Assembly: GCF_004214935.1 (NCBI RefSeq)
Contig: NZ_SFCC01000008.1
Location: forward strand, 1 to 64,000
Length of the DNA stretch: 64,000 nucleotides
Reading direction: 5' to 3'
Source of the DNA: Amycolatopsis suaedae
Lineage (GTDB): Bacteria; Actinomycetota; Actinomycetes; Mycobacteriales; Pseudonocardiaceae
Below are positions 4,716 through 44,864 of this stretch, piece after piece. Position numbers and translations under genes: made by a program. The stretch's first letter is position 1; every line of letters starts with the position of its first letter. The notes beneath the pieces are model-generated. The model saw only the letters and a list, made by a program, of their open reading frames with translations. It did no database searches and was not told the DNA's origin.

Positions 4716-4723
4716 CTCCACTT

Positions 4724-21795: not shown

Positions 21796-21848
21796 GGGAG
21801 CAAGGGAGCTTTACTACCCTTCTTCGCTAGTAAACCTCCCTTGCTCCC
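21796..21848. repeat. Hairpin repeat, copy 5 (encodes the PucR C-terminus)
   Basis: A 21-bp stem with one mismatch (GGGAGCAAGGGAGCTTTACTA, 21796-21816, against 21828-21848) and the loop CCCTTCTTCGC. It lies between convergent DUF488 and PucR genes, and the PucR gene reads into it: the element supplies the last residues (EQGRFTSEEG) and the stop. The single stem mismatch falls in the coding arm. A flanking TCACTTCCGTAAGG is shared with copy 7. Confidence 0.92.
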
Positions 21849-28687: not shown

Positions 28688-28736
28688 GAGCAAGGGAGCT
28701 TTACTAGCGAAGAAGGGTAGTAAAGCTCCCTTGCTC
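28688..28736. repeat. Hairpin repeat, copy 6 (between divergent genes)
   Basis: A perfect 19-bp stem, GAGCAAGGGAGCTTTACTA with complement, and the loop GCGAAGAAGGG. It is identical to copy 1 in stem core and loop. Unlike the other copies it lies between divergent starts, so it cannot be only a 3'-end terminator. Confidence 0.92.
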
Positions 28737-28852
28737 CCTTACGGGAGTGGCTGGTGGGGCCCGTGGGGCTGGTGGGACAGCGCACGCGGGACCGGTCCCC
28801 GGCCGGGAGCGCTACCGTCGCCACCGGCGAGCACGGCGGGCGGGAGCGGCGG

Positions 28853-29395
28853 ATGTGGATCGGGGACCGGGTCGGGATGCGGCTGGTTCACGTCACCGGC
28901 ATCGAGGCCCGCGCCAACCAGACCATCACCCGGTACACGGTGCAGATCGTGTGGGCGGACCGGCCGGCCGAGGGCGTCCGGACCGGGCGGGTGCGCTGCG
29001 CCGAATGCGGCACCTGGGTGAAATTCGAGATCCGCGACGCGGCGTCGACCCGCGCCCGCCGCCGGTGGCTGATCGCGGCGGGGGTGGTCTCGGCCGTCGT
29101 ACTGGCCGGGCTCGTCCTGCTGGTCACCCGGATCGACGACCTCGACCTCGGCGGCCTGGAGGCCTACCTCGGTCCCCTGCTCGGCATCGCGCTGGCGGCG
29201 CCGGTGATCGGCCTGGTCCTCGTCGGCACGTTCGCGCCGGCCATGGACGGCGTACGGCGGCCGGACGTCAAGCGGCAGTACCAGGTCCACCACGGCTTCC
29301 GGCCGTCCAGCCCGCGGTTGCTGTGGCGCAACCCGCCCGCGGTCGACGTCCCCGCCGGCCCGCGGATCGAGTACGACGACGCTCAGCGCCGGTAG
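28853..29395 (+). CDS. Two-helix membrane protein of unknown function
   Basis: 180 residues. A cytoplasmic-looking N-terminal half with a single CAEC pair (GRVRCAECGTWVKFEI, near residue 50) is followed by two membrane helices, RRWLIAAGVVSAVVLAGLVL near residue 82 and PLLGIALAAPVIGLVLVG near residue 108, and a basic C-terminal tail. No family is recognised. The ATG at 28853 has GGGAG six bases upstream; an earlier in-frame GTG at 28754 is less likely because it overlaps the repeat flank. It converges with the secretion operon, overlapping its last gene by 13 bp. Confidence 0.7.
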   Translation: MWIGDRVGMRLVHVTGIEARANQTITRYTVQIVWADRPAEGVRTGRVRCAECGTWVKFEIRDAASTRARRRWLIAAGVVSAVVLAGLVLLVTRIDDLDLGGLEAYLGPLLGIALAAPVIGLVLVGTFAPAMDGVRRPDVKRQYQVHHGFRPSSPRLLWRNPPAVDVPAGPRIEYDDAQRR

Positions 29396-30342
29396 CGGTA
29401 CGGGATCTCGGTCGACTCCTCGCCGGTGGGGCCGAACCCGCCCTCCCGCTTCGGCTGGGCGTTCTCGCCCAGTTCGTCGAACCAGCCGCGGGACGCCGCC
29501 GGGGTCCCACGGGGCGGGGTGGGCGGGACCGCGAACGGCTCGTCCAGGTCGGTGACCGGCCGGGCCGTCGGCGGCAGCGGCAGCTTGCCCGACGCCGTCT
29601 CCGCCGGTTGCTCGGCGGGCGCGGGCGGGGACGAGGTCACCGTCGACGCCGGCTCGGGCGGCGGCTCGGCGGCAGGCGGCGGCGCGGGCGGTTCGGCAGG
29701 CGGCGGCTCGGCACGGGCCGGCTCGGCGGGCGGCGGCTCCTTGGCCGCGTCGGCCACCGGCGGCGGCGCGGGGAACGGTGGCACGCGCTCCCCGCCGGGC
29801 GGGGTCGGCACGGTCTTCCACACCGGCGCCGGTGGCAGGTTGATCGGTACGGCGGGGGCCGGAGCGGCCGGGGGCGGCGCGGACCGGCCACCCCGCACGA
29901 TCGGGTCCAAAGTAGACACCAGCACCGTGGTGTTGGCCGGGTCGGTCACCCGGCGCCCGCTGCGCTCGCGGTAGACCATCTCGCCTTCGCTGTCGATCTC
30001 CACCAGGTAGCCCGCCTCGGCGAGCTGCTCCTCGTCGAGGTCGACCAGCCGCTCGTACCGCGAGGGCACCACCCGGTAGGTCGGCCAGGACACCCCGCGG
30101 TACGCACCGTGGAACTGCGCCAGCAACCCCACCAACTGCTGCTGCCACGGCAGCGACATCGACTCGGCCAGCGACCGCGGCAGCACGACGTAACCGCCGT
30201 CGACGCCGGGCAGCCCCTGGTTGAGGTAGTCGGCCAGCGGGGTGCTCGACGCCGGCGGACCGCCGTGCCGCGGCGCGGGCGGACCGAACAGATCCCTCGG
30301 GTCCTGCGCCTTCTTGGATCGCTTGCCGAACTTCTTGCCCAC
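29383..30342 (-). CDS. Proline-rich protein at the end of the T4SS-like operon
   Basis: 319 residues with three parts: a basic start (GKKFGKRSKKAQDPRDLFG), a folded region of about 110 residues (WQQQLVGLLAQFHGAYRGVS ... VDLDEEQLAEAGYLVEID), and a long Pro/Ala/Glu-rich, probably unstructured tail from about residue 150. There is no signal peptide or membrane helix, so it is probably cytoplasmic. The family is not recognised. The GTG at 30342 has AGGAG five bases upstream and lies 8 bp after the previous stop, so it belongs to the operon. A role in assembly or substrate handling is possible but not shown. Confidence 0.7.
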   Translation of the reverse strand: MGKKFGKRSKKAQDPRDLFGPPAPRHGGPPASSTPLADYLNQGLPGVDGGYVVLPRSLAESMSLPWQQQLVGLLAQFHGAYRGVSWPTYRVVPSRYERLVDLDEEQLAEAGYLVEIDSEGEMVYRERSGRRVTDPANTTVLVSTLDPIVRGGRSAPPPAAPAPAVPINLPPAPVWKTVPTPPGGERVPPFPAPPPVADAAKEPPPAEPARAEPPPAEPPAPPPAAEPPPEPASTVTSSPPAPAEQPAETASGKLPLPPTARPVTDLDEPFAVPPTPPRGTPAASRGWFDELGENAQPKREGGFGPTGEESTEIPYRYRR

Positions 30343-30350
30343 TCGATCTC

Positions 30351-31349
30351 CTAAACGCCGGGCCGGACGGCCTGCGGGACCAGCTCGTCCTCGTCCCACG
30401 AGACGTTCCTGGTGTGCACCGGAACCCCGGTCTGCTGCGCCTCCACCATTTTCCCATCACCCAGGTACATCGCCACGTGGTGGATGGTGCGCGGGTTGGA
30501 CGGGTCGTAGGCCCAGAACAGCAGGTCACCGGGCTGCGCGTCACGCACCGGCAGCATCGCGCCGGCCTTGTACTGGTCCCGGGAAACCCTCGGCAGGGTG
30601 ACGCCGGCCGCCTCGTACGCCCGCAGCATCAGGCCCGAGCAGTCGTAGGAGTTCGGCCCGGTCGCCCCCCACACGTACGGCTTTCCCTGCTCCCCCAAGG
30701 CGAACTGGATGGCCGCTGCCGCCGTCTGGCTCGGCGGCAGCAGCGTGCCGGTGCCCTCGCCACAGCCCGCGGCGTCGACGACCTGGCCGACGTTCTCCAC
30801 CAGGTGGACCGCCATCGGCTCCCAGTTGTGGTAGCGGTCCGGGAAGCCCGACCGCTCGACGGCCTGCGCCACGTCACCGGGACGGCGCTTGTCCCAGTCC
30901 GGCACCTTCTCCAGCACGTCGTAGAACTTGTTGACCTGGTACGGCGGGTCGGTCACCTGCGCGACCGTGCCCCAGCCCATCGACGGCCGCATCTGGAAGA
31001 TGCCCAGCGAGTCGCGGTCGCCGTAGTTGAGGTTGCGCAGCTTCGACTCGGTCATGCCCGCCTGGATGGCGATCTGCCACGCCCGCGGCGACAGGTTGCG
31101 CTGCTTGCCGATCTGGATGATCAGCTGCACGTGCCCGAGCTGCTCCTCGTCCAGCTTCGACGCCGCCTCGGCCGCCGAGTCCTGCTCGCCGGGCTGCGTC
31201 GGGCCGACCGCCGCGTCGCAACTGACGTTGGAGATCCCGCGGGCCTCCTGCTCGGCCTGCTCGGTGACCACGGTGGCGACGGTTCCGGTGGTGACCACCG
31301 CGGCGAACAACACGGCGACGATGACGCCGACGAGCACACCGATGCGCAC
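30351..31349 (-). CDS. VirB1-like cell-wall hydrolase (transglycosylase + NlpC/P60)
   Basis: 332 residues. One N-terminal membrane anchor (GVLVGVIVAVLFAAVVTTG), a lysozyme-like/transglycosylase region (GMTESKLRNLNYG, SLGIFQMRPSMGWGT; residues about 85-190, the glutamate of MTES as likely acid), and a C-terminal NlpC/P60 peptidase (NSYDCSGLMLRAYEA with the catalytic cysteine near residue 241, IHHVAMYLGDGKM with the histidine near 293). It is the same two-enzyme plan as CwlT of Tn916 and TcpG-type proteins, which open the wall for a conjugation channel. GTG start at 31349, 3 bp after the VirB8-like stop. Confidence 0.85.
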   Translation of the reverse strand: MRIGVLVGVIVAVLFAAVVTTGTVATVVTEQAEQEARGISNVSCDAAVGPTQPGEQDSAAEAASKLDEEQLGHVQLIIQIGKQRNLSPRAWQIAIQAGMTESKLRNLNYGDRDSLGIFQMRPSMGWGTVAQVTDPPYQVNKFYDVLEKVPDWDKRRPGDVAQAVERSGFPDRYHNWEPMAVHLVENVGQVVDAAGCGEGTGTLLPPSQTAAAAIQFALGEQGKPYVWGATGPNSYDCSGLMLRAYEAAGVTLPRVSRDQYKAGAMLPVRDAQPGDLLFWAYDPSNPRTIHHVAMYLGDGKMVEAQQTGVPVHTRNVSWDEDELVPQAVRPGV

Positions 31350-31352
31350 GGC

Positions 31353-31955
31353 TCAGCCCACCCGGTCGTAGGCCGATACCCGCCAGCCCACGTTCGTCTT
31401 CACCGCGGTGATCTTGAGTTTCGGTCCGTCCGTGGCGATCTCCGCCTCGACCGACGTCGTGAACGACTCGGTCGTGGCCGGTTCCCCGGTCACCTTCGAC
31501 GCCGGGATGTTGGCCAGGTCGACCGTGGCCAGCGTCGGCAGGTACTCCTCGGTGGTCAGCGGCCGCAGGTTGTCCAGCCACTGCTGCGGTGTCATGCCGT
31601 CGGGGTGGTTGGTCCAGGTGGTCGCCCACTGCTTGATCAGCGCGAGCGCCTCCGGCGCGGGCGGCGCCGTGGTCGGGGTGCGCAGCGGCTCGCTGAGCCT
31701 GGTCGGCAGCGGGCTGGCCGGGGCGCCCGGCCCCTTGCCGTCCGGCCGCGAACTGCTGGTGGTGCTCTGCTGACCGGCCACCGACGGCGTCGCGGGCGGC
31801 TTGTCACCGGCGAGCTTGGGCACCAGGATGCCGGTCGCCACCACGAGACCGACGAACACGACGATCGCGACCACCAGGTGGGTGGTGGACCTCAGCGGCC
31901 AGCCCCAGATCCTGCGGTAGACGGCCGCGCGGCCGCGGTTGGTTCGAATCGGCAT
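31353..31955 (-). CDS. VirB8/TcpC-like membrane protein
   Basis: 200 residues: a short basic cytoplasmic end, one membrane helix (HLVVAIVVFVGLVVATGILV, about residues 27-46), a Ser/Pro/Thr-rich linker, and an extracellular domain of about 105 residues ending KLKITAVKTNVGWRVSAYD, with the strand pattern of NTF2-like VirB8/TcpC proteins. In Gram-positive conjugation systems TcpC is the bitopic scaffold protein. The assignment rests on topology, size and place between VirB6-like and VirB1-like genes; sequence identity alone would be weak. The next gene starts after 3 bp. Confidence 0.65.
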   Translation of the reverse strand: MPIRTNRGRAAVYRRIWGWPLRSTTHLVVAIVVFVGLVVATGILVPKLAGDKPPATPSVAGQQSTTSSSRPDGKGPGAPASPLPTRLSEPLRTPTTAPPAPEALALIKQWATTWTNHPDGMTPQQWLDNLRPLTTEEYLPTLATVDLANIPASKVTGEPATTESFTTSVEAEIATDGPKLKITAVKTNVGWRVSAYDRVG

Positions 31956-31959
31956 CTGC

Positions 31960-34029
31960 TCACCTCACCGCGTGGTCGGTGTCGCGGGAATCGGCGACCT
32001 CCAGTCCCCGGGAGGGCCGGTAGAGCACGAACACGGACTTGCCGCCGACCACCTCGGGGTCGACCCGGCGCGGCGGGGTACGGGGCGCGGGCACCGGCTC
32101 GCTCCGGTTCGCCGACGTCACCGGCGGATCCATCCGCGAGGGCACCACGACCGGTTCCGCGTCGTCACCGCGGTCCCAGCGGCGGTCCGACACCGGCGCG
32201 GTGTCGACCCGCCTGCTCGGCGGCGGCGCGGGCAGTCCCAGCTGGTCACCGGGCCGCGCACCGGGCACGAATCCGCCGAACGCGGCCAGCCCGCCGCCAC
32301 CGGCGGGCAACGCGGGCACGTCGTCAGCTCCGCCGATCGCGGTCGCGCCCCCGCCACCCGGCCACGGCGCACCGGACCACGCCGCGGCGGGCCGGGCGTG
32401 CATCGAGCCGGCGCCGTCGAGCCGCTGTGCCGTGGCGAACACGGAAGCCTCGGGACGGAACCGGCCGCCCAGCGCGCCGACCGGGCCGCGGTTCTCCACC
32501 GGCGTGTCGTCGGTGTCGCGCACGTTCTGCCAGAACTCGTCCTGCGGCGTCGGGCCGTCCGGCTGCTTGCGGAACCTGGAGAACAGCCCGCCCCGCGGGG
32601 TCGGCACGGCCGAACCGACCATGCTGACCGACATCTCCACCATCTGCCACAGGCGCCGCGTCGGCTTGCCGACCAGGAACAGCAGGATGGTCACCAGGCC
32701 GGCCAGCGCCATCTGCACCAGCATCGACAACGCGCTGCCCTCGGCGAAAATGGCCTGCAGGATCAGCGCGTGCACACCGGCGAGCACGGACAGGATCACC
32801 AGGTTGAACGCCACCGCGGCGATCACCTTCGCCACCCGCCGCAGGATGTCGTGGTGCAGCAACGCCACCAGGCCGATCAACGGCGCGGTGAGCGTGAACA
32901 GCCGCACCAGCACCTGCGCCAGCAGCACGGCGGCCTTCGCGAACAGCTGGAACAGCGAGTACACCAGGCTCTGCAGGAACGCGAGGAACCCGGCGCCGGT
33001 GCGGCTGCCGTCCTCGCCGGTGAAGTAGCCGGTGGCCGGGCCGAGCTGCGTGGCGATGGCCTTGAACTCGGCCTTCTTCGCGTCGACGACCTCCTGCTTG
33101 GCGTCGTCGCCCGCACGCAGCTGGGCCCAGGTGAACGCCTGCGCGTCGAGCAGCCGCGGCCCGAAGTCCTTGGCCTGCTGGGCATCCGGCGCGCCGAACT
33201 CACCACGCAGCCAGTTGTTGTAGACGACCTGGGTGTGCAGCGTGGTCGGCAGCACGTGCCGCACCACCTGGTCCTGCGACTCGTCCACGAACCCCGCCTG
33301 GATGTTCGTGGTGGTCTGCACGATGACCCGGTCGATCTGGTCGTAGTAACGCAGCATCGCGAACGACGACGCCGCCAGCCACACCGCGGCCAGCGCGAAC
33401 AGGGCACGTTTGCTGACCGTCGACAGGTCGCCCCGCCAGATGTTGCGGAACAGCACGATGGCCAGCAGCAGCGCGGCGAGACCGAACAGCTGGGCGTAGA
33501 TGTTGTTGTAGACCTTCTCCGCGCCCGACTTGACCGCGTTGTACAGCGGGCTGAGCAGCCCGCCCTCCATCACGGTGTAGTGCAGCGAGTTCGTGGCACC
33601 GACGATGTTCTTGCCGATGTTGAACAGCTGGTTGCCGCCCCACGTGTCGATCGTGGAGTTCGGGTCGGTGATGCCCGACAACGGCCCGCAGTTGGTCTGG
33701 TAGACGTTCCAGACCATGCCGGCGTAGCTGTAGTCGACGTACGGGCTGCCCGCGGCGCCGTGCCCCTGCGCGGGGTCGAGCGCGCCGACCATGCCCGAAC
33801 CGGGCCGCTCCGGGTTGGGTGCCGCGCCACACTCGGCCGCGGCCGCCTGCGGTGCGGTGACCACGGCCTGCAGCGTGACCACGGCGATCGCCGCGAGCAT
33901 CGCCATCCGGCGGCGGCGCTGCTCGGGAGGTCTTTTCCGGCGGCGGCCACGCCGCAGCAGGTACCAGGCACCGGCCACTGCCAGGACCGCCAGCAGTGTG
34001 CTCAGCCCGGGATCACCTGAGCCGCTCAC
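31960..34029 (-). CDS. VirB6-like polytopic membrane protein
   Basis: 689 residues. An N-terminal anchor and basic patch, a second hydrophobic stretch resembling a signal (MAMLAAIAVVTLQAVVTA), then a long extracellular part with cysteines (ECGAAPNPERPG, YQTNCGPLSG), about five or more membrane helices between residues 170 and 460, including VAFNLVILSVLAGVHALIL, and a Pro/Arg-rich cytoplasmic tail of about 230 residues. Many helices plus a large loop and a long tail fit the VirB6/TraL/TcpH channel component. The GTG overlaps the VirB4 stop by 4 bp. Specific identity is inferred from the operon. Confidence 0.7.
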   Translation of the reverse strand: MSGSGDPGLSTLLAVLAVAGAWYLLRRGRRRKRPPEQRRRRMAMLAAIAVVTLQAVVTAPQAAAAECGAAPNPERPGSGMVGALDPAQGHGAAGSPYVDYSYAGMVWNVYQTNCGPLSGITDPNSTIDTWGGNQLFNIGKNIVGATNSLHYTVMEGGLLSPLYNAVKSGAEKVYNNIYAQLFGLAALLLAIVLFRNIWRGDLSTVSKRALFALAAVWLAASSFAMLRYYDQIDRVIVQTTTNIQAGFVDESQDQVVRHVLPTTLHTQVVYNNWLRGEFGAPDAQQAKDFGPRLLDAQAFTWAQLRAGDDAKQEVVDAKKAEFKAIATQLGPATGYFTGEDGSRTGAGFLAFLQSLVYSLFQLFAKAAVLLAQVLVRLFTLTAPLIGLVALLHHDILRRVAKVIAAVAFNLVILSVLAGVHALILQAIFAEGSALSMLVQMALAGLVTILLFLVGKPTRRLWQMVEMSVSMVGSAVPTPRGGLFSRFRKQPDGPTPQDEFWQNVRDTDDTPVENRGPVGALGGRFRPEASVFATAQRLDGAGSMHARPAAAWSGAPWPGGGGATAIGGADDVPALPAGGGGLAAFGGFVPGARPGDQLGLPAPPPSRRVDTAPVSDRRWDRGDDAEPVVVPSRMDPPVTSANRSEPVPAPRTPPRRVDPEVVGGKSVFVLYRPSRGLEVADSRDTDHAVR

Positions 34030-36917
34030 GCGGCATCCCTGCCCGTGCCGCCGCCCTTGCGTCCTCCGCTGCGGACCGGCTCACCACCGGCTCCGTTGGT
34101 CTCGGCGGAGGCGGTTCCCGGGATCTCCTCGCCGAGCACCTGCTCCTCGGTGAGGCCGACCTCCAGCTCCGCCGCCCGCTCCAGGTCCTGCTCCAGCTCG
34201 CTGTCGTCGGCCGGCGGCACCGGGATACGTGGCTCCGGAGCCCTGGGGGCCGGTTCCTGCGAACCCTCCTGCGGAGCGGTCGCACCCGGCGTGGTGTCCA
34301 TGACCGCCCGCAGGTGGTCCAGGTGCGGCCCGGAGAAGTCGGCCCGGATCCGCTCCACGCCACCGGCACCGTCGGCGAAGATGAACTGCCTCGGCTCACG
34401 GTCGCGTTCGGTGCCGCGCTGCGCGCCCGGCCGCCTGCCCAGCGCCGACACGACCTGCTCGTAGCCGACACCGACCGGGACCTTCAGCAGGCGCAGCGCG
34501 TCGGCCTGCGCGTCGTCGTCGTCGAGCCTGCCGACGAACACCGAGTCCAGCAGCGCGACGAAGCCCTGGATCTTCAGGAAGTCCGCCGGGATCTGCGAGG
34601 ACAGCAGCACGCGGACGTTCCACTTACGGGAGTCGCGGGCGAACCGGTTCATCAGCACGCGCCCGGTCGGCACCTCGGACAGGAAGAACGCCTCGTCGAT
34701 CCAGACGCCCTTGCGCAGGTCCTTGGGCCGCTCGTAGACCGACCGCTGGGTCAGCCACGCCGCCAGGTTGAGCATCTCCACGCCGAGTGCCTCGGCGTCG
34801 GTCCAGTGCTCCCGGCCGACGCCGTCCTTGGGCAGGGTCAGCCCGGCCATGGTGAGCACGGTCAGCCGGTCGTCGCGGGTCTCGGAGTACGGGTCGGCGT
34901 CGGTCTCCGGGATGAGCAGCGACATGCGCTCGCGCATCTCGTCGAGGAAGTCGGCGACGACGACCGCGTGCTCGTGGTGCTCGCTGGCGTCACGCCGCAG
35001 CGCGTCGATGACCTGGCCGGGGTCGGCGTCGAACCGGCCGCCGACCGCCCGCACGGCCCGCAGCAGCACGATGCGGCTCTGCGGCATACGGGCGACCTCG
35101 TAGGGCAGCACGCCGGTGAGCACGTCGAGCACCAGGCGCCGCCGGGTCGCGCCGGCCAGCGCCTTCTCCCTGCGCCACGCCCGCTCCGGGTCGTCCTCGT
35201 CCATGAAGTGCTCGAGCAGCGGCTCGCCGACCACCCGGTACGGGTTGAGGATGCCCGGCTGGGCGTTGAGCAGGTTGATCGGCCGCGCGTACGGGCGGAC
35301 CTCGGGCAGGTCGCACAGCCGCGACAGCGGGCCGGACGGGTCGAGGATCGTCCAGTGCGCCCCGGCGCGGAACGTCTTGTAGACGATGCCGCCGCCGAGG
35401 AACGACTTGCCGCCACCCAGCCCGGCGACCATGGCCGTCAGGCCGGAGCCGTCCCGGATCTCCTGCGCCATCCACGGGTCCCAGGCCACCGGGCGGCGGG
35501 TCGCGGTGCAGGTCTCGCCGAGCAGGATGCCGCGCCGGTCGCCGACCTCGGCGGTCGCCGTGGGCACCGCGGCGGCGGCCCAGACGACCGAGCCGCGCCG
35601 CATGTAGGCGCCGGAGGCCAGCGGCTCGCCGGGGATGAACTCCCTGGCCATGGCGTACTGCGCCTCGGGATGCTCGATGGCGATCTTCGGCTTGTACAGG
35701 TCGAGCAGCTGCTGGGCCAGGCGCAGGGCGTCGCGCTCGGTCGGCCCGGACACCGCCAGCCGCCACCAGGACCGCACCCGGGTGGCCAGCGCGGTGAAGC
35801 CGGAGGTCATCTCGTCGTCGATCTCCAGCACCCGCGACGCCTGCCGGGCCAGCGACTGCGGCGGCTCCAGCTCGTGTTCGTCGGTGTAGTGCTTGACCTG
35901 CGAGCGGACCTTGCTCATCTGCCGCTGCAGCTCGCCCGCGACCTCCTCCGGCCTGCGCACGTAGATGCGGGCGGACCACTCGACGGCGGCGGGCAGGCGG
36001 TCGGCGTGCTGCACCCACGGGTCGTCGACCTCGGGGATCTGCAGGCCGTGCATCTGGCCGACGGTGAGCACCACCAGCTGGCGCGCGACGCCGGCGTTGG
36101 AGCCGGTGCGGCCGCGGACGGTCAGCGTCGGGGCGTAGGGCTCGGCGTGGAAGTCGGCGGCGTCGGTGAAGCTGGCCAGGTCCTCCGGCTCCCAGGCCGC
36201 CCCGGGGACGGCGGGCATGTTGCGTGGTGCCGGCAGGCCCAGCGAGCAGGAGCGGTGCATCAGCCAGGACATCTCGTCGGCGTGCGCCGGCCTGCCCTCC
36301 AGCCCGGCCGAGCCGATGACCTGGTCGAGGTGCTCGATCTCGGAGTCGAGCGCGGCCAGCTCGGCGTCGACGGCCTCGGGCAGGATCTTGCGCAGCAGCG
36401 GCGCGGCCCGCTCGACGGCGCGGTCGACCACCCGGCGGGTCTGCACCTGGACGCCGAGGTAGACCTCCTTCTCGGCCATCGAATGGCCCATCAGCTGCTG
36501 CTGCTCGCCGATCAGGTAGTCGTCGAAGGACAGCGCGCCGGAGACGTCCTTGGGCCGGTTGTGGGCGTTGTGCACGTGGGCCTCGGCCCACATGCGGATC
36601 GGGTAGGGCCGGTTGGTCACCCGCAGGTGCAGCCAGCGGCCCTGCAGCTCGGCGTACTGGCCGGCGATGGCGGCGATGAGGTCGCGGCGCTGCGAGTCGG
36701 AGCGGAACGACCAGCGCTGCGGCGCCAGCCGGTACCAGGCGTAGACCTCGTTGCCCGTGCGCAGCAGGTGGCCGTCGATGCTGCGGGCCGCGATGGACGG
36801 GGTGTAGGCGGGTACCGCCTGTTCCCCGGGCAGCCTGCGACCCCGCCCCTGCTTGGCCGTCGCGGAGCGCTGCTTGCGCGTTCCCCGCGTGTCCCGGCCG
36901 CCGCCGCGCCCCAACAA
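34026..36917 (-). CDS. VirB4-like secretion ATPase
   Basis: 963 residues of a hexameric-type traffic ATPase that powers assembly or transport at the inner membrane face. Walker A MVAGLGGGKSFLGG is near residue 500, with a Walker B-like VWIDEAFFLSE near residue 735, followed by NVRVLLSSQIPADFLK. The N-terminal half (YAELQGRWLHLRVTNRPYPI onward) resembles the VirB4 N-domain, and the last 100 residues are a Pro/Glu-rich tail. A TTG at 36917 is used: AGGGAGG lies six bases upstream, and the TAG stop of the previous gene is part of it. No membrane helices are seen, so it is not a coupling protein of the TraD/TcpA type. Confidence 0.85.
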   Translation of the reverse strand: MLGRGGGRDTRGTRKQRSATAKQGRGRRLPGEQAVPAYTPSIAARSIDGHLLRTGNEVYAWYRLAPQRWSFRSDSQRRDLIAAIAGQYAELQGRWLHLRVTNRPYPIRMWAEAHVHNAHNRPKDVSGALSFDDYLIGEQQQLMGHSMAEKEVYLGVQVQTRRVVDRAVERAAPLLRKILPEAVDAELAALDSEIEHLDQVIGSAGLEGRPAHADEMSWLMHRSCSLGLPAPRNMPAVPGAAWEPEDLASFTDAADFHAEPYAPTLTVRGRTGSNAGVARQLVVLTVGQMHGLQIPEVDDPWVQHADRLPAAVEWSARIYVRRPEEVAGELQRQMSKVRSQVKHYTDEHELEPPQSLARQASRVLEIDDEMTSGFTALATRVRSWWRLAVSGPTERDALRLAQQLLDLYKPKIAIEHPEAQYAMAREFIPGEPLASGAYMRRGSVVWAAAAVPTATAEVGDRRGILLGETCTATRRPVAWDPWMAQEIRDGSGLTAMVAGLGGGKSFLGGGIVYKTFRAGAHWTILDPSGPLSRLCDLPEVRPYARPINLLNAQPGILNPYRVVGEPLLEHFMDEDDPERAWRREKALAGATRRRLVLDVLTGVLPYEVARMPQSRIVLLRAVRAVGGRFDADPGQVIDALRRDASEHHEHAVVVADFLDEMRERMSLLIPETDADPYSETRDDRLTVLTMAGLTLPKDGVGREHWTDAEALGVEMLNLAAWLTQRSVYERPKDLRKGVWIDEAFFLSEVPTGRVLMNRFARDSRKWNVRVLLSSQIPADFLKIQGFVALLDSVFVGRLDDDDAQADALRLLKVPVGVGYEQVVSALGRRPGAQRGTERDREPRQFIFADGAGGVERIRADFSGPHLDHLRAVMDTTPGATAPQEGSQEPAPRAPEPRIPVPPADDSELEQDLERAAELEVGLTEEQVLGEEIPGTASAETNGAGGEPVRSGGRKGGGTGRDAA

Positions 36918-36920
36918 CGC

Positions 36921-37355
36921 CTACCTCCCTGCCGCGGCCGCCTGGCCGCGACGTGCTCGTGTGCCTTCACTTGTACCGCGCCGCCGCTTGGGGCGCGGCC
37001 GCTGCGCACGCACCCGCACCTTCCCGGCGGAGACCGCGCCACCCGTCCCGGTGGTGCGCTCACGCGGAGTGTTCAGTTCTCGCAGCCACATCGTCATGAC
37101 CGCGCCCAGCGGGCGCTCATGACTGATCTTGGCGGTGATCAGCCTCGTGAGGAAGATGGTGATCGGGACGAGGAACGCGGTCGACCAGTCGGCGAACCCG
37201 AAGCCCAGCTGCCGCTTGACGGCCAGCAGCACGAGGAACAGGGGGATCCCGACGCCCCATGCCACGTACCGCGCCCGCCAGGGGAAAGTCGCCTTCGGCG
37301 GGCCGAGCCAGACGGCGTCGACCCGGTAGACCTCGTCGTCGGTCCTGATGCGCAC
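36921..37355 (-). CDS. PrgI-like two-helix membrane protein
   Basis: 144 residues: a short soluble beginning (RIRTDDEVYRVDAVWLG), then two close membrane helices (ARYVAWGVGIPLFLVLLAV and ADWSTAFLVPITIFLTRLI, residues about 28-70), then an Arg-rich cytoplasmic tail. Small two-helix proteins of this kind (PrgI, VirB3-like) precede VirB4 genes in Gram-positive type IV systems and anchor the ATPase, as here: its stop codon overlaps the VirB4 ribosome site. GTG start at 37355, 16 bp after the upstream stop. Confidence 0.7.
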   Translation of the reverse strand: MRIRTDDEVYRVDAVWLGPPKATFPWRARYVAWGVGIPLFLVLLAVKRQLGFGFADWSTAFLVPITIFLTRLITAKISHERPLGAVMTMWLRELNTPRERTTGTGGAVSAGKVRVRAQRPRPKRRRGTSEGTRARRGQAAAAGR

Positions 37356-37371
37356 TCCGGCCCCGCCCAGC

Positions 37372-37641
37372 TCAGCCGGTGAACAGGCCGGCGAGCCATT
37401 CGCCGACGTTCACACCGAGGCCGCTCACCGCGAGGCCGATGATCGCCAGCGCGATCACCACACCGGCGAGCCTGCGCATCACGCCCGCGTTGTCTCCCCG
37501 GCCACCACCGAGCCACAGCAGCAGCAACGCCACCGCCAGCAGCACCAGCGGGATGATGTTGTCCAGGATCCAGCTGCGGACGCCGCGGGTGTTGAGCTCG
37601 CCGTTCTGAGCAAGATCGGCGAGGGTGGTCAAGGTGGTCAT
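37372..37641 (-). CDS. VirB2/pilin-like small membrane protein
   Basis: 89 residues with two hydrophobic helices (IIPLVLLAVALLLLWLG and RRLAGVVIALAIIGLAVSGL) separated by a short GGGRGDNAG loop with N- and C-termini outside. This is the shape of VirB2/TrbC-type pilins or of small accessory membrane proteins of conjugation operons. No cleaved signal is clear. It is the first gene of the operon; GGAG lies seven bases before the ATG. The pilin reading is an inference from size, topology and position. Confidence 0.6.
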   Translation of the reverse strand: MTTLTTLADLAQNGELNTRGVRSWILDNIIPLVLLAVALLLLWLGGGRGDNAGVMRRLAGVVIALAIIGLAVSGLGVNVGEWLAGLFTG

Positions 37642-37931
37642 CGCAAACTCCAGGGTGCGCGGAGCGTGGCCGGGCAGAGCCCACTTCCACGGACTCCGCC
37701 GTCGGTGTCGAACATAGTGTGCGCCGACATTCTCATGCTGTCACGAGGGGTAGCCGTCGAGGCGCGCTCTGTCGCTGTCATCGCTCTGTGTTGCCGGCCC
37801 CGAGGCACGTCACGCCCCATCTCACTGGTACTGGTCGCTCTCCATCATCGTTGTCACCGTGCTCAGGATTAACCCCGGCCACCCGTATTTCCTAGTGTGC
37901 GGACGGACTCACCCGAACGCGAGAGGCGTCG

Positions 37932-38294
37932 TCACGCTGGGTGGAGTAATGCGGAGGGCCGGTCGGGCCGCGTCCAGTGTGGCATGCCCCGGACGGCCGC
38001 TTCGCGAGTCCGGCCGGTAATCGCCGGTACAGGCCACTGACCACCCCGGGGGCCGCACACGATCACCTTAACGAGGGTTTCACGGGGAACATCGCCCAGG
38101 ATCTGGGGGATTTCCGACCCCATTTCGGCGACGTTGAGTGACAGGTTTCCCGTTCCGGTGAGTTTCCCGGTGGCCAATGCCAGTCGCTCCTTGTTTATAA
38201 CGAAAACATAACGAACCGGGCACTGTTCGGCCGAGCCCGGCGCGATCCCCGTATCCCCGGTCGGCGCGCCATCCCCCGACCCTTCCGCCGACAA
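37932..38294 (-). CDS. Possible small protein of unknown function
   Basis: An open frame of 120 codons from a TTG at 38294, or 81 codons from a TTG at 38177 that has AAGGAG nine bases upstream. The shorter form begins ATGKLTGTGNLSLNVAEMG and contains ILGDVPRETLVKVIVCGPRG. The DNA before it (38190-38215) is unusually A/T-rich, with GTTATGTTTTCGTTATAAAC, a plausible promoter. No family is recognised. It lies between the divergent secretion operon and the DUF1996 gene, reading the same way as the secretion operon. Confidence 0.35.
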   Translation of the reverse strand: MSAEGSGDGAPTGDTGIAPGSAEQCPVRYVFVINKERLALATGKLTGTGNLSLNVAEMGSEIPQILGDVPRETLVKVIVCGPRGGQWPVPAITGRTREAAVRGMPHWTRPDRPSALLHPA

Positions 38295-38310
38295 CGAGGT
38301 GAGACAGTCG

Positions 38311-39453
38311 ATGGCCCGATATCGCTACAAGGGGCGACACCGCATCTCCCGCAGAGCAACGTTCAGCATCGGAGGTGTCGCACTCGCTGTGGCCGTGGGC
38401 GCCGTGGTCGTCACCACGACGGCCGGCGCCCCGGGAACGGCGAGCGCGGACAACCCCGACCGCTCGCAGTTCGTGGACATCACCACCGTGGAGCCCAACG
38501 TCGACCTGCCGAGGCAGCGCCGGGGCGCCTCCACCGGGACGTTCACCGTGGACTGCGGCCGCAACGAGAACGGCCACTTCAACCCGGACAACTTCATCGC
38601 CCAGCCGGGGGTCCGCAACGGGGCGCAGCATCTGCACGACTACGTGGGCAACCTGTCCACCGACGCCGACTCGGACGACGAGAGCCTCGCCGCGGCGGGC
38701 ACCACCTGCCGCAACGGTGACCAGTCGACCTACTTCTGGCCGGTCGTGCGCATCGACACCGAGGACGCGGGCGAGGAAAAGGAGGAACGCGAACGGGACA
38801 ACGCCAGGGAATCCGAAGCAGAGAGCAAAGGCAAGCAGGGCAGGCAGAACCGCGACGGCAGGCAGGACTCCGCCGGCGACCTGGCGGGCCAGGACGCCGA
38901 GGGCGAGCTGCCGGGCAACGAGGGCGAGATCCAGCGCCCCGCCGAGGTCGACCTCACCTTCCGCGGCAGTCCGGTGGGTGACGTCGAGCCGATGCCACGG
39001 TTCCTGCGCGTGCTCTACGGCGACGCCAAGGTCTCCACGAACGGCCCGGCGAACGCCCGGGCGTCGTGGACGTGCACCGGGTTCGAGGACGAAGTGCTCC
39101 TCGAGACCTATGTCGTGTGCCCGGAGGGCAGCGACGTCAAGCGGATCCACGACTTCCCGTCTTGCTGGGACGGGGAGAACACCGACAGCGAGAACCACCG
39201 GGACCACATCGTGTACCCGAACGAGCGTGGTGAGTGCGAGGACGGCTTCACGGCCGTGCCGCAGCTGCGGATCAGCCTGACCTACGACATCCCGCGGGAG
39301 GTACAGCTCGCGGGTCAGTACAAAGTGGACTCATTCCCCGAGGAGGATCACAACCCGCTCTCGGATCACGACGACTTCGCCAACGTGATGTCGGAAGAGA
39401 TCATGGACCGCTTGGTCGACTGCGTGAACTCCAACCGAACGTGTAAAGAGTGA
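38311..39453 (+). CDS. Secreted DUF1996-domain protein with acidic insert
   Basis: 380 residues. An N-terminal signal (ISRRATFSIGGVALAVAVGA, then alanine-rich cleavage near AGAPGTASA) sends it out of the cell. DUF1996 motifs follow: CGRNENGHFNPDNFI, the histidine pair NGAQHLHDYVGN, and later SCWDGENTDSENHRDHIVYP and the Cys-containing C-terminus. Between residues about 150 and 210 sits a very hydrophilic Glu/Arg/Asp-rich low-complexity stretch not expected in the core domain. The ATG at 38311 follows GAGGTGAG. The activity is not known; the domain is common in secreted fungal and actinobacterial proteins. Its terminator is at 39475-39506. Confidence 0.82.
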   Translation: MARYRYKGRHRISRRATFSIGGVALAVAVGAVVVTTTAGAPGTASADNPDRSQFVDITTVEPNVDLPRQRRGASTGTFTVDCGRNENGHFNPDNFIAQPGVRNGAQHLHDYVGNLSTDADSDDESLAAAGTTCRNGDQSTYFWPVVRIDTEDAGEEKEERERDNARESEAESKGKQGRQNRDGRQDSAGDLAGQDAEGELPGNEGEIQRPAEVDLTFRGSPVGDVEPMPRFLRVLYGDAKVSTNGPANARASWTCTGFEDEVLLETYVVCPEGSDVKRIHDFPSCWDGENTDSENHRDHIVYPNERGECEDGFTAVPQLRISLTYDIPREVQLAGQYKVDSFPEEDHNPLSDHDDFANVMSEEIMDRLVDCVNSNRTCKE

Positions 39454-39895: not shown

Positions 39896-39942
39896 AGCAA
39901 GGGAGCTTTACTACCCTTCTTCGCTAGTAAAGCTCCCTTGCT
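39896..39942. repeat. Hairpin repeat, copy 7 (convergent gene ends)
   Basis: A perfect 18-bp stem (AGCAAGGGAGCTTTACTA with complement) and the loop CCCTTCTTCGC. It lies 29 bp from the stop of the candidate immunity gene, on the far side of the DUF1996 gene. TCACTTCCGTAAGG just before it is shared with copy 5. Confidence 0.92.
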
Positions 39943-39971
39943 CCGGCTTCGGCGGCGGGGTGGTGAGGGAG

Positions 39972-40328
39972 TCAGGCCGGTTTCGTGAAATCGCCTCGGG
40001 TCCAGCGGCGTTTCGCGGCTTCCCAGTCGATGTCCTTGAACCAGGCCAGGCGCTCCTGGGCCGTCTCCCAGGAGTAAGTCCGGGCCGAGCGCAGGGTTTC
40101 GGCGTGCCGGTGACTGGAGATCTCGACGAAGTACTCGTCACGGAAGCCGATCGTGCCCTCCCGCTCCCAGGCGGCGGGCACGAGCGTGACCGTCACCCGG
40201 TCCGCCAGCGGGTGACGCATGGCGACGACGGCCTCGCCGCCGTCCTCCGGGCACAGCATCTCCCCGGCGGGCGGCTCGCCGGGCCCGTCGACGAGCCGCC
40301 ACCAGGCATGGCTGTCCTCGCACCGCAT
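39972..40328 (-). CDS. Candidate immunity protein of the Rhs toxin
   Basis: 118 residues, soluble and without a signal peptide, rich in tryptophan and charged residues (SHAWWRLVDG near the start, WFKDIDWEAAKRRWTRGDF near the end). No family is recognised. It begins 16 bp after the Rhs stop on the same strand, where polymorphic toxin immunity genes normally lie; that position is the evidence for its role. The ATG at 40328 is chosen; a longer reading from 40433 would overlap the toxin end by 89 bp. It should act in the cytoplasm by binding the C-terminal toxin domain. Confidence 0.65.
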   Translation of the reverse strand: MRCEDSHAWWRLVDGPGEPPAGEMLCPEDGGEAVVAMRHPLADRVTVTLVPAAWEREGTIGFRDEYFVEISSHRHAETLRSARTYSWETAQERLAWFKDIDWEAAKRRWTRGDFTKPA

Positions 40329-40344
40329 CTGCCACCAGGCGGCG

Positions 40345-43300
40345 TCAGCCGTGCGGGCGGTAGGGCGTCCGGTTGCTGCCGGGGTAGAAGAAGTGAATCC
40401 GGTGATTGACTCCCGGTCCCCAGACGTTGACATGTGGCCCCACTACTTCCGTTCGGCCGTCCTGGTTGAAAGTGTGCCCCATCCTGTCATCACGCCACCC
40501 GACGCTGCCGTCCGCGCTCTGCCGTCCGATGACACCGTCGGGCCGCATCCACTGGTCACCCCGGAAGTCGCTCATCCGGATCGGCTGCGCGCCGTGGCCC
40601 ATCTGGCCGACGTACTCCGCCGCGGCCTGACGCGCGGACCGGCGGTTGGGGAACATGTACCCCTGCGCGCCGGCACCGGAGGTGTGCGGCACCCCGCCGT
40701 ACCGTCCCAGCGCGTTGTTCAGCCGCCCCGCCGGACACGGCGTCAGGCCCAGCGGGTCGGTGAAGGCGTGCGGGTTGTCCACATAACCGTGCGGCCGGAA
40801 CCCACCGGCCAGCCCCAGCGGATCGGCGCTGCCGTAGCGCCCGGTCGACGGGTCGTAGTGCCGGTGGAAGTTGTAGTCGAGCCCGGTCTCCGGATCGTGG
40901 TACTGGCCGGGGAACCGCAGCGGCGTGTACGCGCCCGCGCTGCTGTGGTCGACGGTCTCGCCCCACAGGTTGGTCCGCCGGAACCAGGCGACGCCGCCCT
41001 GTTCACCGATCATCTCGGTGGGCGTGCCGACCAGGTCGGTCACGATCCCGTAGAACCGCTCGTCCACCCACTGCTGCGGGGCGTGCCGCAGCAGCGAACG
41101 CTCGTGCTGCAGCAGCGGCCGGAACGTTCCCGGCTCGTAGTCCCACGCCGTCACCCGGGTGTCTCCGCCCGCGGCGCTGTGCGCCTGCTCGGCCACGACC
41201 TCGCCGTCCCAGACGAAGTCGATCTGCTCGGCGACCGACCCGTCCGGATTCAGCCGCTGCTTGGCCGCCCGCCTGCCCAGCGGGTCGTAGCGGTAGCGCC
41301 ACTGGGTGCCGTCCGGGGTACGCACCCCGGTCAGCCGGTCGTCGGCATCCCAGAAGTACTGCCAGGTGTCTGGTATCCGAGACAGCCGTTTCCGCTGCCG
41401 CAGCACCATCCTGCCCTGGGCGTCGTGTCCATATCGGACGTTGCCGGCGCGCAGCAGCAGCGTCCCCCGGTACTCCCGCTCGCCGGTCTCCTCGGCGGGA
41501 GCCTGCCCGGGTGCCGACGGCCAGGCCGCGGTGGCGACGTTGCCCGCCGCGTCGTAGGCGTACTGCTCGGACCAGTTCGGCCCGGCGACCCCGGTCACCC
41601 GGTCCGCCGGATCGAGCGTGAACGCCCGCGGTCCGGTGAGCTGGTCGTGCAGGCCGGTGAGCCGGCCGGCCGGATCGTAGTCGTAGGACCGCTGCTGCAG
41701 CAGGTTTCCACCAGCCCCGGTCAGTGTCTGGGATTGCAGACGGTGCTGGCCGTCCCATGCCTGCGCGAGCAGGACCTGGTCGCCGAACGCACGCTGAATC
41801 TCCTGCCCGGCGGCGTCGTGGCCGAACCGCAGCGTCCGGCCCGCGGCGCCGAGCGTGACCGGCCGCCCGGCCGCGTCGAACTCCCACACCGACTCCACCC
41901 CGGACGGGGTGCGCCGCCGCACCCGCCGTCCCAGCGCGTCGTAGGCCGACGCGACGGTCCGTCCGTCGACGGTCTCCGCGACGACCCGCCCGTTCGCGTC
42001 CCGTTCCAGACCGACGTGCGTCGCGGCGTCGGCCGCCTCGACGAGCCTGCCCATCAGGTCGTACCGGAACGTCGCGGTCGCCGCGGGGCTGTGCCGCTCG
42101 ACGACGTTGCCCAGCGCGTCCCGCACGAACCGGGTGGTCTCGCCCGCCCCGTTGGTGCGCTCGACCAGCTGCCCGGCGGCGTCGTGCCGGTAGGTGATCG
42201 TGCGGCCGTTGAAGTCTGTCTCGGTGACCAGACTCCCCGCGGCGTCGTACTCGTACCGCCAGACCAGTCCCTGCTCGTTCGTGACGCTGGTCAGTCGCAG
42301 CTCGGTGTCGTAGCCGAAACTCAGTCGCGTGCCGTCCGGGCGGGTCTGCACGGACGGGAGATCGAAGTGGGTGACCTCGATCCGGGTCGTCTGCCCGAGC
42401 CGGTCGGTGTAGGCGGTCAGGTTTCCCTCGCCGTCGTAGGTCCACCGCTCGGTGGTCCCGTCCGGGAACTCCCGCCAGGCTGGCTTGCCATCCGGGGTCC
42501 AGCCCAGTGCCGTCCGCTCGCCGAGCGGATCGGTGACGGCGGCCACCCTGCCGAACGCGTCGCGCTCGTACCGGACGGTGCCGCCGAGCGGATCGGTGAG
42601 CAGCACCGGCAGGCCCGCCGGATCGGTGCCGACCCGCCAGGTGTTGTGCAGCGCGTCGGTGACCCCGGTGAGGCGGCCGTGCTCGTCGTGGGTGAACGCC
42701 GTGACCGCGCCCGCCGGATCGGTGATCCGGGCGATGTTGCCACGCTCGTCGTACTCCCGGCGGATCACCGTCCCGTCCGGCTGGACGACCGTGACCGGCA
42801 GCCCGAGCTCGCCGTACTCGAACCGGGTCCCGGTACCGTCCGGCAGGGTGACGGCGGTGAGGTTGCCCGCGTCGTCGTAGGTGTAGCCCGTGGTCCGGCC
42901 CAGCGGGTCGGTCCGCCGGAGCAGCCGGTCGAACCGGTCCCACTCGGACACGACCACGTTGCCGAGCGGATCGACCTCCCTGATCACCTGACCCAGGTCG
43001 TTGAGGTGGAACTCGGTGCGGTGGCCCAGCGAGTCGACGGAGCAGGTGACGTGGTCGCCGTATTCCATCGTGCCGGTCAGGAAGCCGCCCGACCCCTCCG
43101 TACGCACGCAGCGCCCCGCCGCGTCGTAGGTGTAGCGGTACCACTCGCCGTTGCGGTCGGTCCACGCCGTGATCCGGCCCGCCTGGTCGTAGTCGAACCG
43201 CAGCGCCTGCCCGGACGCGTTGACCACCTCGGTGAGCCTGCCCGCGCGGTAGCCGTAGCGCATCAGCTCGGTCTCACCGCCGTCGGCGGCCACCGAGTGC

Positions 43301-44859
43301 AGTGCGGTGACCAGCCGGTCGGTGGTCTCGATCCGGATCCGGTAACCCGCGCTGTGCGTGATCTCGCTGGGCGCGCCGTTGTCGTAGCCGAACTCGATCC
43401 GGTTGCCGTTGCGGTCGGTGACCGACGTCAGCGGCAGCACCGAGGATCCCGGCGCGAAGTACAGCGTCTCCGACCGCTCCTCGATGAGGTAACCACCGTC
43501 CTCGGCACGGCGCAGCGTCCGGGCAGGGCCCTGGTCGCTGGTCACCGGCGCGCCGGGCGCGGGGTGCGGGTAGTGCTGGACGGTGCCGTCGGCGGCGGCG
43601 AAGGTCACGCCGGAACCGTCCACCTCCAGCCGCTGGTCCACTGTGGACACCCAGGCACGGCCGAACCACCGGCCGGCCTGGTAGGACGAGAAGTGGGTGC
43701 GCTCGAACACCAGCGGAAGCACGCCGAGGAACTCCGCGTCGGTCTGACCGAGCACCATCTGCCCGGTGGCGACGTCGATCGGGTCCTTGCAGCCACGCAC
43801 GTTGTCCGGGGAGCGCGGGTTCGGCTTCTCGTCGCGCAGCGACCCGTTGTTCCCGCCCCGCGACCCCGACGCCGACGTGCTGTCGCCACCACCACGGGAA
43901 CCGGCCGGGCCGGGACCCGGGCCGTCCCCCGGCGAACCGGACGACCCGGGCGAACCCGACGGCCCGGTGCCGTCCGAACCGCCCGGCCCCCGGTTGCCGC
44001 CGCCACCGGACGCACCGCTCGCCGACGTCGAGTCCGAGCCTGGCTTGTCGACCGACCGTGGGCCGCCCTCGATGTCCTTCGGGCGGTCCGGAGTGTCCGG
44101 TTTGGACTGCTTGATGTTCTTCAGCGCCTTCTTGGCGTCGTCGAACAGGTCGGTCGCCTTCTTCACCAGCGGCACGAACTTCTTGAGCGCCTGGACCAGC
44201 CGCTTCATCACATCGGCGATCTTCGCCGTGACCTCGGCGACCTTCAGGACGACCTTCGGCACGACCCAGGCCATCCCGATGCCCAGCGTGAACAGGACCT
44301 GCAGTGCCCAGCTGATCAGGCTGCCGACGAGGTCGGCGATGATGTCGCGGACCAGCCCGCGGACGGCGGCGACCACCTCACCCGCCGTCTGGATCCCGCT
44401 GGACGCGCCCTCCGCGCCGTTCTGCGCCGCGGTGATCAGGTTGACCGTGTCGGTGGCGCGCTGCCGGTAGGTGTCCGCGGCCGGGCCCTGCCAGCCCGCG
44501 GTCTCGTTGGTAGCCATTCCCGTCAGGTCCTGCCCGACGGCGGCCAGCTCGGTGGCCACGTTCTTCCACGTCTCGGAGTGGGCCTTGATCTCCTCGGGGT
44601 CGCCCGCGAGCGCGTCGAGGGCTTCCTTCAGCGGGCCGACGTGTTCCAGCAGCCAGCCCACGCCGTTGGAGATGATCGCGGCGAACGGGTCCAGTACAGC
44701 GCCCAGCGTGTCCAGCGCCGTGCCGACCGCGCCCATCGCCACGGCGGCCCAGTCGCCGCTCTCGATCGCGGCCTTCAGGTCGGCGGCGCTCTCGGCCAGT
44801 GGCATGCCGGAGTACGCCTTGGTCTCGTCCTTGGTCTCGGCGACCAGCGGGTTCGCCAC
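40345..44859 (-). CDS. WXG100-linked Rhs/YD-repeat polymorphic toxin
   Basis: 1504 residues in modular order: a helical N-terminal part with a WXG100-type motif (AGWQGPAADTYRQRA, near residue 120) that suggests export by a type VII (ESX) system; a Gly/Ser-rich linker (about 280-355); a DUF6531-like start and a long array of YD repeats (GYTYDDAGN, YRYDPLGRRAA and others, about 400-1345) that forms the Rhs shell; the Rhs border NFHRHYDPSTGRYGSADPLG near 1330; and a variable tail of about 130 residues after the last DPLGL. The tail has histidines in VGPHVNVWGPG and NHRIHFFYP, compatible with a nuclease-like toxin, but no family is assigned. GTG start at 44859, 5 bp after the EspC-like stop. Confidence 0.9.
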   Translation of the reverse strand: MANPLVAETKDETKAYSGMPLAESAADLKAAIESGDWAAVAMGAVGTALDTLGAVLDPFAAIISNGVGWLLEHVGPLKEALDALAGDPEEIKAHSETWKNVATELAAVGQDLTGMATNETAGWQGPAADTYRQRATDTVNLITAAQNGAEGASSGIQTAGEVVAAVRGLVRDIIADLVGSLISWALQVLFTLGIGMAWVVPKVVLKVAEVTAKIADVMKRLVQALKKFVPLVKKATDLFDDAKKALKNIKQSKPDTPDRPKDIEGGPRSVDKPGSDSTSASGASGGGGNRGPGGSDGTGPSGSPGSSGSPGDGPGPGPAGSRGGGDSTSASGSRGGNNGSLRDEKPNPRSPDNVRGCKDPIDVATGQMVLGQTDAEFLGVLPLVFERTHFSSYQAGRWFGRAWVSTVDQRLEVDGSGVTFAAADGTVQHYPHPAPGAPVTSDQGPARTLRRAEDGGYLIEERSETLYFAPGSSVLPLTSVTDRNGNRIEFGYDNGAPSEITHSAGYRIRIETTDRLVTALHSVAADGGETELMRYGYRAGRLTEVVNASGQALRFDYDQAGRITAWTDRNGEWYRYTYDAAGRCVRTEGSGGFLTGTMEYGDHVTCSVDSLGHRTEFHLNDLGQVIREVDPLGNVVVSEWDRFDRLLRRTDPLGRTTGYTYDDAGNLTAVTLPDGTGTRFEYGELGLPVTVVQPDGTVIRREYDERGNIARITDPAGAVTAFTHDEHGRLTGVTDALHNTWRVGTDPAGLPVLLTDPLGGTVRYERDAFGRVAAVTDPLGERTALGWTPDGKPAWREFPDGTTERWTYDGEGNLTAYTDRLGQTTRIEVTHFDLPSVQTRPDGTRLSFGYDTELRLTSVTNEQGLVWRYEYDAAGSLVTETDFNGRTITYRHDAAGQLVERTNGAGETTRFVRDALGNVVERHSPAATATFRYDLMGRLVEAADAATHVGLERDANGRVVAETVDGRTVASAYDALGRRVRRRTPSGVESVWEFDAAGRPVTLGAAGRTLRFGHDAAGQEIQRAFGDQVLLAQAWDGQHRLQSQTLTGAGGNLLQQRSYDYDPAGRLTGLHDQLTGPRAFTLDPADRVTGVAGPNWSEQYAYDAAGNVATAAWPSAPGQAPAEETGEREYRGTLLLRAGNVRYGHDAQGRMVLRQRKRLSRIPDTWQYFWDADDRLTGVRTPDGTQWRYRYDPLGRRAAKQRLNPDGSVAEQIDFVWDGEVVAEQAHSAAGGDTRVTAWDYEPGTFRPLLQHERSLLRHAPQQWVDERFYGIVTDLVGTPTEMIGEQGGVAWFRRTNLWGETVDHSSAGAYTPLRFPGQYHDPETGLDYNFHRHYDPSTGRYGSADPLGLAGGFRPHGYVDNPHAFTDPLGLTPCPAGRLNNALGRYGGVPHTSGAGAQGYMFPNRRSARQAAAEYVGQMGHGAQPIRMSDFRGDQWMRPDGVIGRQSADGSVGWRDDRMGHTFNQDGRTEVVGPHVNVWGPGVNHRIHFFYPGSNRTPYRPHG

Positions 44860-44864
44860 CTGCC

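Follow-up and report, generated by a model that had tools for sequence, protein, structure and literature searches.

A resident, probably non-conjugative type IV secretion locus with a putatively phage-related seventh gene in Amycolatopsis suaedae and other Pseudonocardiaceae

Introduction

The conjugation systems of Tn916 and pCW3 follow a component plan that comprises VirB4, VirB6, a VirB8-like protein, and a hydrolase of the CwlT type. A sequence-only reading of 64,000 nucleotides from Amycolatopsis suaedae (NCBI RefSeq assembly GCF_004214935.1, contig NZ_SFCC01000008.1, positions 1 to 64,000; this whole stretch is here called the window) had likened to them a block of seven genes at 29383-37641 on the minus strand, transcribed in the order P7, P6, P5, P4, P3, P2, P1 and resembling a type IV secretion system (T4SS). 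The comparison stands for the monoderm-type core, which is supported by a VirB4 ATPase and a two-domain wall hydrolase; the nearest relatives found, however, are modules of actinobacterial linear plasmids. The locus further differs from Tn916 and pCW3 in that its NCBIfam matches (TcpF, CD3337/EF1877) lie far under cut-off and that no coupling protein, relaxase, or integrase was detected at it.

A known kind is the MOBless T4SS, a chromosomal T4SS without a nearby relaxase; such systems were inferred to be mostly protein secretion systems in the survey of Guglielmini et al. (2011, PMC3158045), which also reports few T4SS in Actinobacteria. As that survey portrays them, they share with the A. 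suaedae block a chromosomal location with no relaxase found nearby; the block differs in lacking a coupling protein at the locus as well, in being core to the family sample, and in having P1 as a seventh gene, and these three features set this variant apart. No published description of this variant was found by title or abstract in the open-access literature, among the matches listed. T4SS of Patescibacteria are described (PMC12102498) as mostly lacking a relaxase and as rarely having the coupling gene close to virB4; judged from that description, and leaving P1 aside, they are alike in their MPF-FATA-type core and belong to another lineage with a different complement of genes.

The sole chromosomal T4SS-like cluster of actinomycetes for which a phenotype was found in the literature examined is cmdABCDEF (SCO4126-4131) of Streptomyces coelicolor. 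Its deletion is reported to affect sporulation, chromosome segregation, and pigment (PMC2782261), transposon insertions were recovered in cmdBCDEF (PMC6585502), and transfer of an SLP2-derived plasmid by cmd mutants is given as not significantly changed, with data not shown there (PMC2782261). Like the block described here, cmd is conserved, lies on the chromosome, and resembles a T4SS, an ATPase and a small protein of two helices being among its products; it differs in gene order, in its short ATPase with the P-loop lysine at residue 90, and in its SCO6880-family protein.

The A. suaedae block is best read as a resident, functional, and probably non-conjugative T4SS. We put at roughly two in three (about 0.68) the fuller reading that the Pseudonocardiaceae, early in their radiation or before it, captured the apparatus from a lineage of actinobacterial plasmids or integrative and conjugative elements (ICEs), and that it has since been fixed in the chromosome as a machine that does not conjugate and in which P1 probably presents or gates the cargo.

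Results and Discussion

Residency and purifying selection

The seven genes are as tightly spaced as the sequence-only reading had described them: all are on the minus strand, separated along the operon by 16, 3, -4, 4, 3, and 8 bp. They were compared with 80 P1-containing loci, kept from among 235 relatives, and with 22 further fetched loci of the family; gene prediction was unusable at three loci (L099, L100, L105), for which the T4SS genes were taken from tblastn. The 80 loci are mostly from Amycolatopsis, with Prauserella, Saccharomonospora, Haloechinothrix, Actinophytocola, and others, all of which we take to be Pseudonocardiaceae, and one unclassified metagenome-assembled genome of the Actinomycetes. 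Gene order is conserved beyond chance: at 75 of the 76 P1-containing loci with enough flank, the other six genes lie upstream of P1 in unchanged order.

The VirB4 gene, which is single-copy in the window genome, was found in all 150 Pseudonocardiaceae genomes sampled (46/46 genera), in 36/36 genomes of the same genus, and in 46/60 relatives overall; the check for core status in the genus that the sequence-only reading had proposed thus supports its view of a resident chromosomal system. Across the class, VirB4 was present in at least 39 of 296 genomes, a lower bound in that two best first-look candidates per genome were scored. An RNase II-like gene lies downstream of the block in 52 of 67 P1-containing loci with enough flank, and within the stretch read in 16 of the 22 further family loci. 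VirB4 is better conserved than the neighboring RNase, with medians of 86.7% (76 loci) and 73.0% (53 loci), respectively. Median dN/dS, obtained from eight hand-chosen pairs (seven for P1), was 0.055 for VirB4, 0.067 for P1, and 0.29, the highest value, for P3, and the catalytic residues of P2 (E101, C237, H291) were intact in 23/23 aligned rows. The universal presence of VirB4 in the sample, the usual housekeeping site, purifying selection, and intact catalytic residues together argue for a resident T4SS and not a decaying element.

Plasmid relatives and ancestry

Relatives on named plasmids comprise 88 records, all below 60% identity; the 40 best of these 88 are mostly from Rhodococcus and Prescottella, also from Streptomyces, Nocardiopsis, Nonomuraea, Gordonia, and Pseudonocardia, with one from Alicyclobacillus. 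Five linear-plasmid modules were examined (Streptomyces sp. 891-h; pSM17C; Nonomuraea sp. NBC_00507; Pseudonocardia sp. DSM 110487 p1; Rhodococcus qingshengii CX-1). They carry counterparts of P2-P7 in identical order, with hhalign probabilities of 98.2 to 100% at matching positions and VirB4 proteins about 34-42% identical to P5. In contrast to the resident block they are plasmid-borne, P1 was not found in them, and a gene for a coupling-type ATPase lies about 0.1-5 kb from the module. In four of the five, annotation names this ATPase an FtsK/SpoIIIE-domain protein or a T4SS DNA transfer protein; the candidate of the fifth plasmid, Pseudonocardia p1, is an unannotated 668-aa protein with a weak profile match. 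Pfam FtsK_SpoIIIE is matched by three of the five, whereas at E 0.001 the remaining two match nothing in Pfam.

In a tree of 24 VirB4 sequences, drawn from 124 after several long-branched rows had been dropped, the family copies form one clade (support 98/98) together with L114, a second copy of the system in genome G200 of the family, whose VirB4 is 72% identical to that of the window. The clade adjoins the very long branch of a Pseudonocardia plasmid, with the copies from other plasmids and from chromosomes lying outside, and a quick tree of 54 rows likewise grouped the family copies with L114. This second copy is probably mobile; its coupling protein matches TrwB_AAD_bind (2e-9). In other families of the order, chromosomal copies stand among apparent housekeeping genes. 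A further family (f31; L107-L112 and others), with VirB4 about 28-30% identical, occurs in at least 27 genomes of the class sample.

Search for DNA transfer functions

The sequence-only reading had found no relaxase, coupling protein, or integrase in the window, and a Pfam scan of all 52 predicted genes (custom gene prediction) bears this out, with no match other than the operon's own VirB4; no tRNA was found within the 64 kb either. In the whole window genome (99.39% complete), PF02534, the VirD4-type coupling protein, gave 0 matches, as did PF03432 and PF08751, the two relaxase families searched at that scale. FtsK-domain searches of the same genome gave eight matches in seven proteins: FtsK, one EccC-like protein, four resembling translocases of actinomycete integrative and conjugative elements (AICEs) or plasmids, and one unassigned 906-aa ATPase. 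The gene for the last (L258 3200-5920, C27 of the window genome) has SspH/mad8-type matches in PADLOC and lies downstream of a gene for a protein resembling formylglycine-generating enzyme.

A coupling-protein (T4CP) profile reached at most 9.5 bits in the 80 P1-containing loci and 19.1 bits (L081) in the 22 further family loci, versus 63.6 bits for FtsK, 46.0 for L118, and 37.5 and 38.6 for two AICE-type proteins, all controls outside its build; the profile was built with the coupling protein of L114, and L114, L117, L119, L120, and L121 match it by construction. Unlike the T4SS core, PF02534 coupling proteins are patchy in the family (23/60 genomes). Since MOB-suite classed four of the five plasmid relatives examined as non-mobilizable, failure to find a relaxase does little to set the block apart, and the absence that carries more weight is that of the coupling ATPase.

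An exact repeat pair (28689-28737 and 39896-39944) does flank the block and was considered as a pair of att sites, which the sequence-only reading had not seen. It was rejected as such, being part of a dispersed palindrome of 18-bp arms and an 11-bp loop with seven copies in the window (4671-4717, 6372-6418, 10476-10522, 13574-13620, 21799-21845, 28689-28735, 39896-39942); 14 arm matches were counted in the window against 0 expected by chance, and the exact arm recurs in only 1 of 261 loci, that one from the window genome itself. A bounding set of relaxase, integrase, and att sites, named beforehand as evidence of a mobile element, was not seen at the resident block; the second copy L114 has its coupling protein and was not searched for a relaxase.

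P1 and its phage relatives

P1 (29383-30342, minus strand) has 319 aa when read from 30342, a start that custom gene prediction rated likelier than 30399, and contains no hydrophobic segment. Described earlier as a Pro-rich protein of unknown kind, it does have a Pro-rich tail (30% Pro beyond residue 165) and, in addition, an N-terminal conserved domain (23 invariant columns among 22 rows) that it appears to share with phage proteins (PHROG_3527). No Pfam or NCBIfam family matched P1, and P1-P7 gave no PADLOC defence-system match at E 0.01. Direct comparison of the window P1 with PHROG_3527 is weak (E 0.042), and tblastn with it found no match in phage records, so that the phage link is drawn from prophage-like intermediates and from hhalign (98.1% for P1 versus PHROG_3527). 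The prophage-like copies score 42-57 bits with the P1 family profile and match PHROG_3527 at 1e-8 to 1e-14; one of them matches 51 of 50,697 phage records, and in the 30 of these that were listed the annotation reads either gp36 or hypothetical protein. P1 could offer a way into a phage protein family that is widespread and of unknown function.

The gene is directly downstream of P2 in 80/80 P1-containing loci, its match starting 3-174 bp past the end of the P2 match, and is present in 21 of the 22 further family loci, displaced in one of these; these counts apply to the 102 loci named and not to all 150 family genomes. In the class sample the P1 profile was found in at least five of 296 genomes (seven best first-look candidates per genome were scored, which makes the counts lower bounds), two of them Pseudonocardiaceae and three others, and the three matches from outside the family sit in stretches read as phage-like. 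In L114 and in the Nonomuraea plasmid the gene that follows the hydrolase encodes a coupling-type ATPase, in place of P1. In Vibrio phage ValSw3-3 a P1 relative (L161 2492-2776) stands directly upstream of the gene for the terminase small subunit; ORF6 of phage Seahorse is similarly placed and is named only as hypothetical where it appears in the report on that phage (PMC7012835).

Component proteins and the region upstream of P7

The VirB4 ATPase P5 (34026-36917, minus; 963 aa; Pfam AAA_10 7e-18) has its Walker A motif at residues 497-504, in agreement with the position near residue 500 claimed before, and the Walker B motif GVWIDEA; it matches the solved VirB4 structure 4ag5 at E 7.7e-4 and NCBIfam TcpF with 61 bits (cut-off 1100). 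P4 (31960-34029, minus; 689 aa) is a polytopic protein with eight hydrophobic windows that corresponds to its plasmid counterpart by hhalign at 100% and matches the CD3337/EF1877 membrane-protein family of NCBIfam at 1.6e-8, under cut-off, a match that we take to mean VirB6-like. P2 (30351-31349, minus; 332 aa) is a wall hydrolase of CwlT plan, lysozyme-like and NlpC/P60 (NLPC_P60 1.6e-24), in which residues 66-183 match the muramidase structure 8b2e; NlpC structures were matched as well.

The three smaller proteins are placed mainly by position. P7 (37372-37641, minus; 89 aa, two hydrophobic segments) is weakly VirB2/TrbC-like, of small pilin type, with sub-threshold matches only in NCBIfam and Pfam (TrbC E 0.061); hhalign pairs it at 98.2% with the gene that holds its place in the plasmid modules, and it was detected in 76 of the 80 P1-containing loci at a median identity of 83%. 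P6 (36921-37355, minus; 144 aa), a membrane protein in the VirB3/PrgI position, reaches 99.9% with its plasmid counterpart; it has no Pfam or NCBIfam match, and the PrgI/VirB3 label is thus without a direct family match. P3 (31353-31955, minus; 200 aa), a bitopic protein with one hydrophobic window in the VirB8 position, reaches 99.5%; it likewise has no Pfam or NCBIfam family match and no convincing sequence match in the PDB, and the label VirB8/TcpC is positional in the same sense.

Upstream of P7, a promoter-like block D (37732-37765, minus; TTGACC-N17/18-CAT[GC]AT in relatives), which resembles a principal-sigma promoter, occurs 90-131 bp before P7 in 46 of 48 family loci, versus 0 of 960 simple shuffles; a stricter form of the pattern matched 6 of the 48. 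Further conserved blocks on the minus strand between 37840 and 37991 are A (37975-37991; pattern found in 40 of the 48 loci), B (37866-37900; 28, and its B2 part 24), and C (37840-37853; 32). An RNA leader was considered and rejected, since Rfam gave a single match up to E 1, and that one was far under its cut-off.

Proposed function and alternative explanations

In the mechanism that we propose, P5 with the VirB3-like P6 and the VirB6-like P4 would form an ATP-driven membrane translocon, P3 would span the extracytoplasmic space, P2 would use its two hydrolase domains to make a local opening in the peptidoglycan, and P7 may build a short conduit. With the DNA-loading coupling ATPase absent, P1, which is probably cytosolic, would present or gate a cargo other than DNA, most likely protein; export of protein and the part of P1 as cargo adaptor are suggested by the missing coupling ATPase and by the position of the gene. 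A more specific version, in which the phage-related P1 replaced the DNA-loading ATPase behind the hydrolase gene and so made a dedicated export or gated envelope organelle throughout the family, is offered tentatively and is rather doubtful. If the capture reading is right, a family that includes many antibiotic producers would share a conserved secretion machine, the system would show how a monoderm can run a T4SS that has no coupling ATPase, and a second case, apparently unrelated to Cmd, would be at hand of a conjugation-like apparatus retained for cell biology.

Several points weigh against the reading that we favor. The VirB4 trees have long branches, and L114 nests inside the family clade (a tree excluding it was rejected, p-AU 0.00016 in the approximately unbiased test), which implies that a resident copy was re-mobilized or that there was more than one capture. 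At two loci (L095, L096) the block is at another site, near a gene read as dnaK, and P1 is displaced at the former and was not found near the block at the latter, so that it may not be strictly required. Block D is missing from L048 and from the locus of the window itself (L001), where it is recognizable but degenerate and the genes are intact. The genome-wide finding of no relaxase covers two families, PF03432 and PF08751. The AICE-like FtsK proteins and the 906-aa FtsK-like ATPase of the window genome could serve in trans, as could, in some strains, the coupling proteins found in 23/60 family genomes. No substrate, effector, or phenotype is known for the system.

Use in trans is also the substance of one alternative, which sees the block as a channel retained for plasmids or ICEs, these supplying the coupling ATPase or TraB themselves. 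The VirD4-type T4CPs of those 23/60 genomes, the AICE-like FtsK proteins, and the coupling protein of L114 would all suit it; yet universal presence in the sample under purifying selection is not expected of a facility for occasional guests, the plasmid relatives examined bring their own channel genes, and AICE transfer is described as needing no genuine T4SS in the text consulted (PMC3218068). We regard it as distinctly unlikely. That the block is the inactive or decaying remnant of an ICE is most improbable: although the locus yielded neither a coupling protein nor an integrase and the promoter-like block of the window is degenerate, such a fate is largely contradicted by the selection data (median dN/dS 0.055-0.29), the intact catalytic residues, and VirB4 in 150/150 family genomes.

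A role in development or in the envelope, similar to that of Cmd and serving hyphal growth, septation, or chromosome placement instead of effector export, is unlikely but deserves more weight. Pseudonocardiaceae are largely mycelial, which counts for this explanation, and the P2 hydrolase would suit wall remodelling; the reported cmd deletion phenotype and transposon insertions count for it as well (PMC2782261, PMC6585502). The likeness, however, would be one of role only. Orthology with Cmd was rejected: no homology to CmdA-F was detected (no P2-P7 profile exceeded 20% by hhalign), gene order and ATPase architecture differ, and the SCO6880 family (CmdC type) has no match in the window genome. 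For this comparison cmd was located in five Streptomyces-like genomes by gene sizes, order, and a P-loop lysine at residue 90, which is at 90 in L144-L147 and at 92 in L148, where CmdF was not called either; at the second published cmd residue (404), L144-L147 have an amino acid other than lysine. Streptomyces-like genomes also have a further chromosomal T4SS-like cluster (L125, L126), separate from cmd, with a VirB4-like protein of about 1000 aa.

Neighboring genes in the window

Divergent from the operon is a gene for a DUF1996 protein (38299-39453), without a match in the 80 P1-containing loci, which extend about 2 kb beyond P7. Between P7 and an HTH_67 gene at 46981, the region 39972-45197 encodes an Rhs-repeat protein with an N-terminus resembling type VII secretion (T7SS)/WXG proteins and a small EspC-like protein; at six other loci (L077-L082) the distance between P7 and the HTH_67 gene is about 1 kb or less. 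Farther away, at 8134-10449, is the gene for a SecA-family protein of 771 aa, short for a housekeeping SecA and possibly an accessory SecA.

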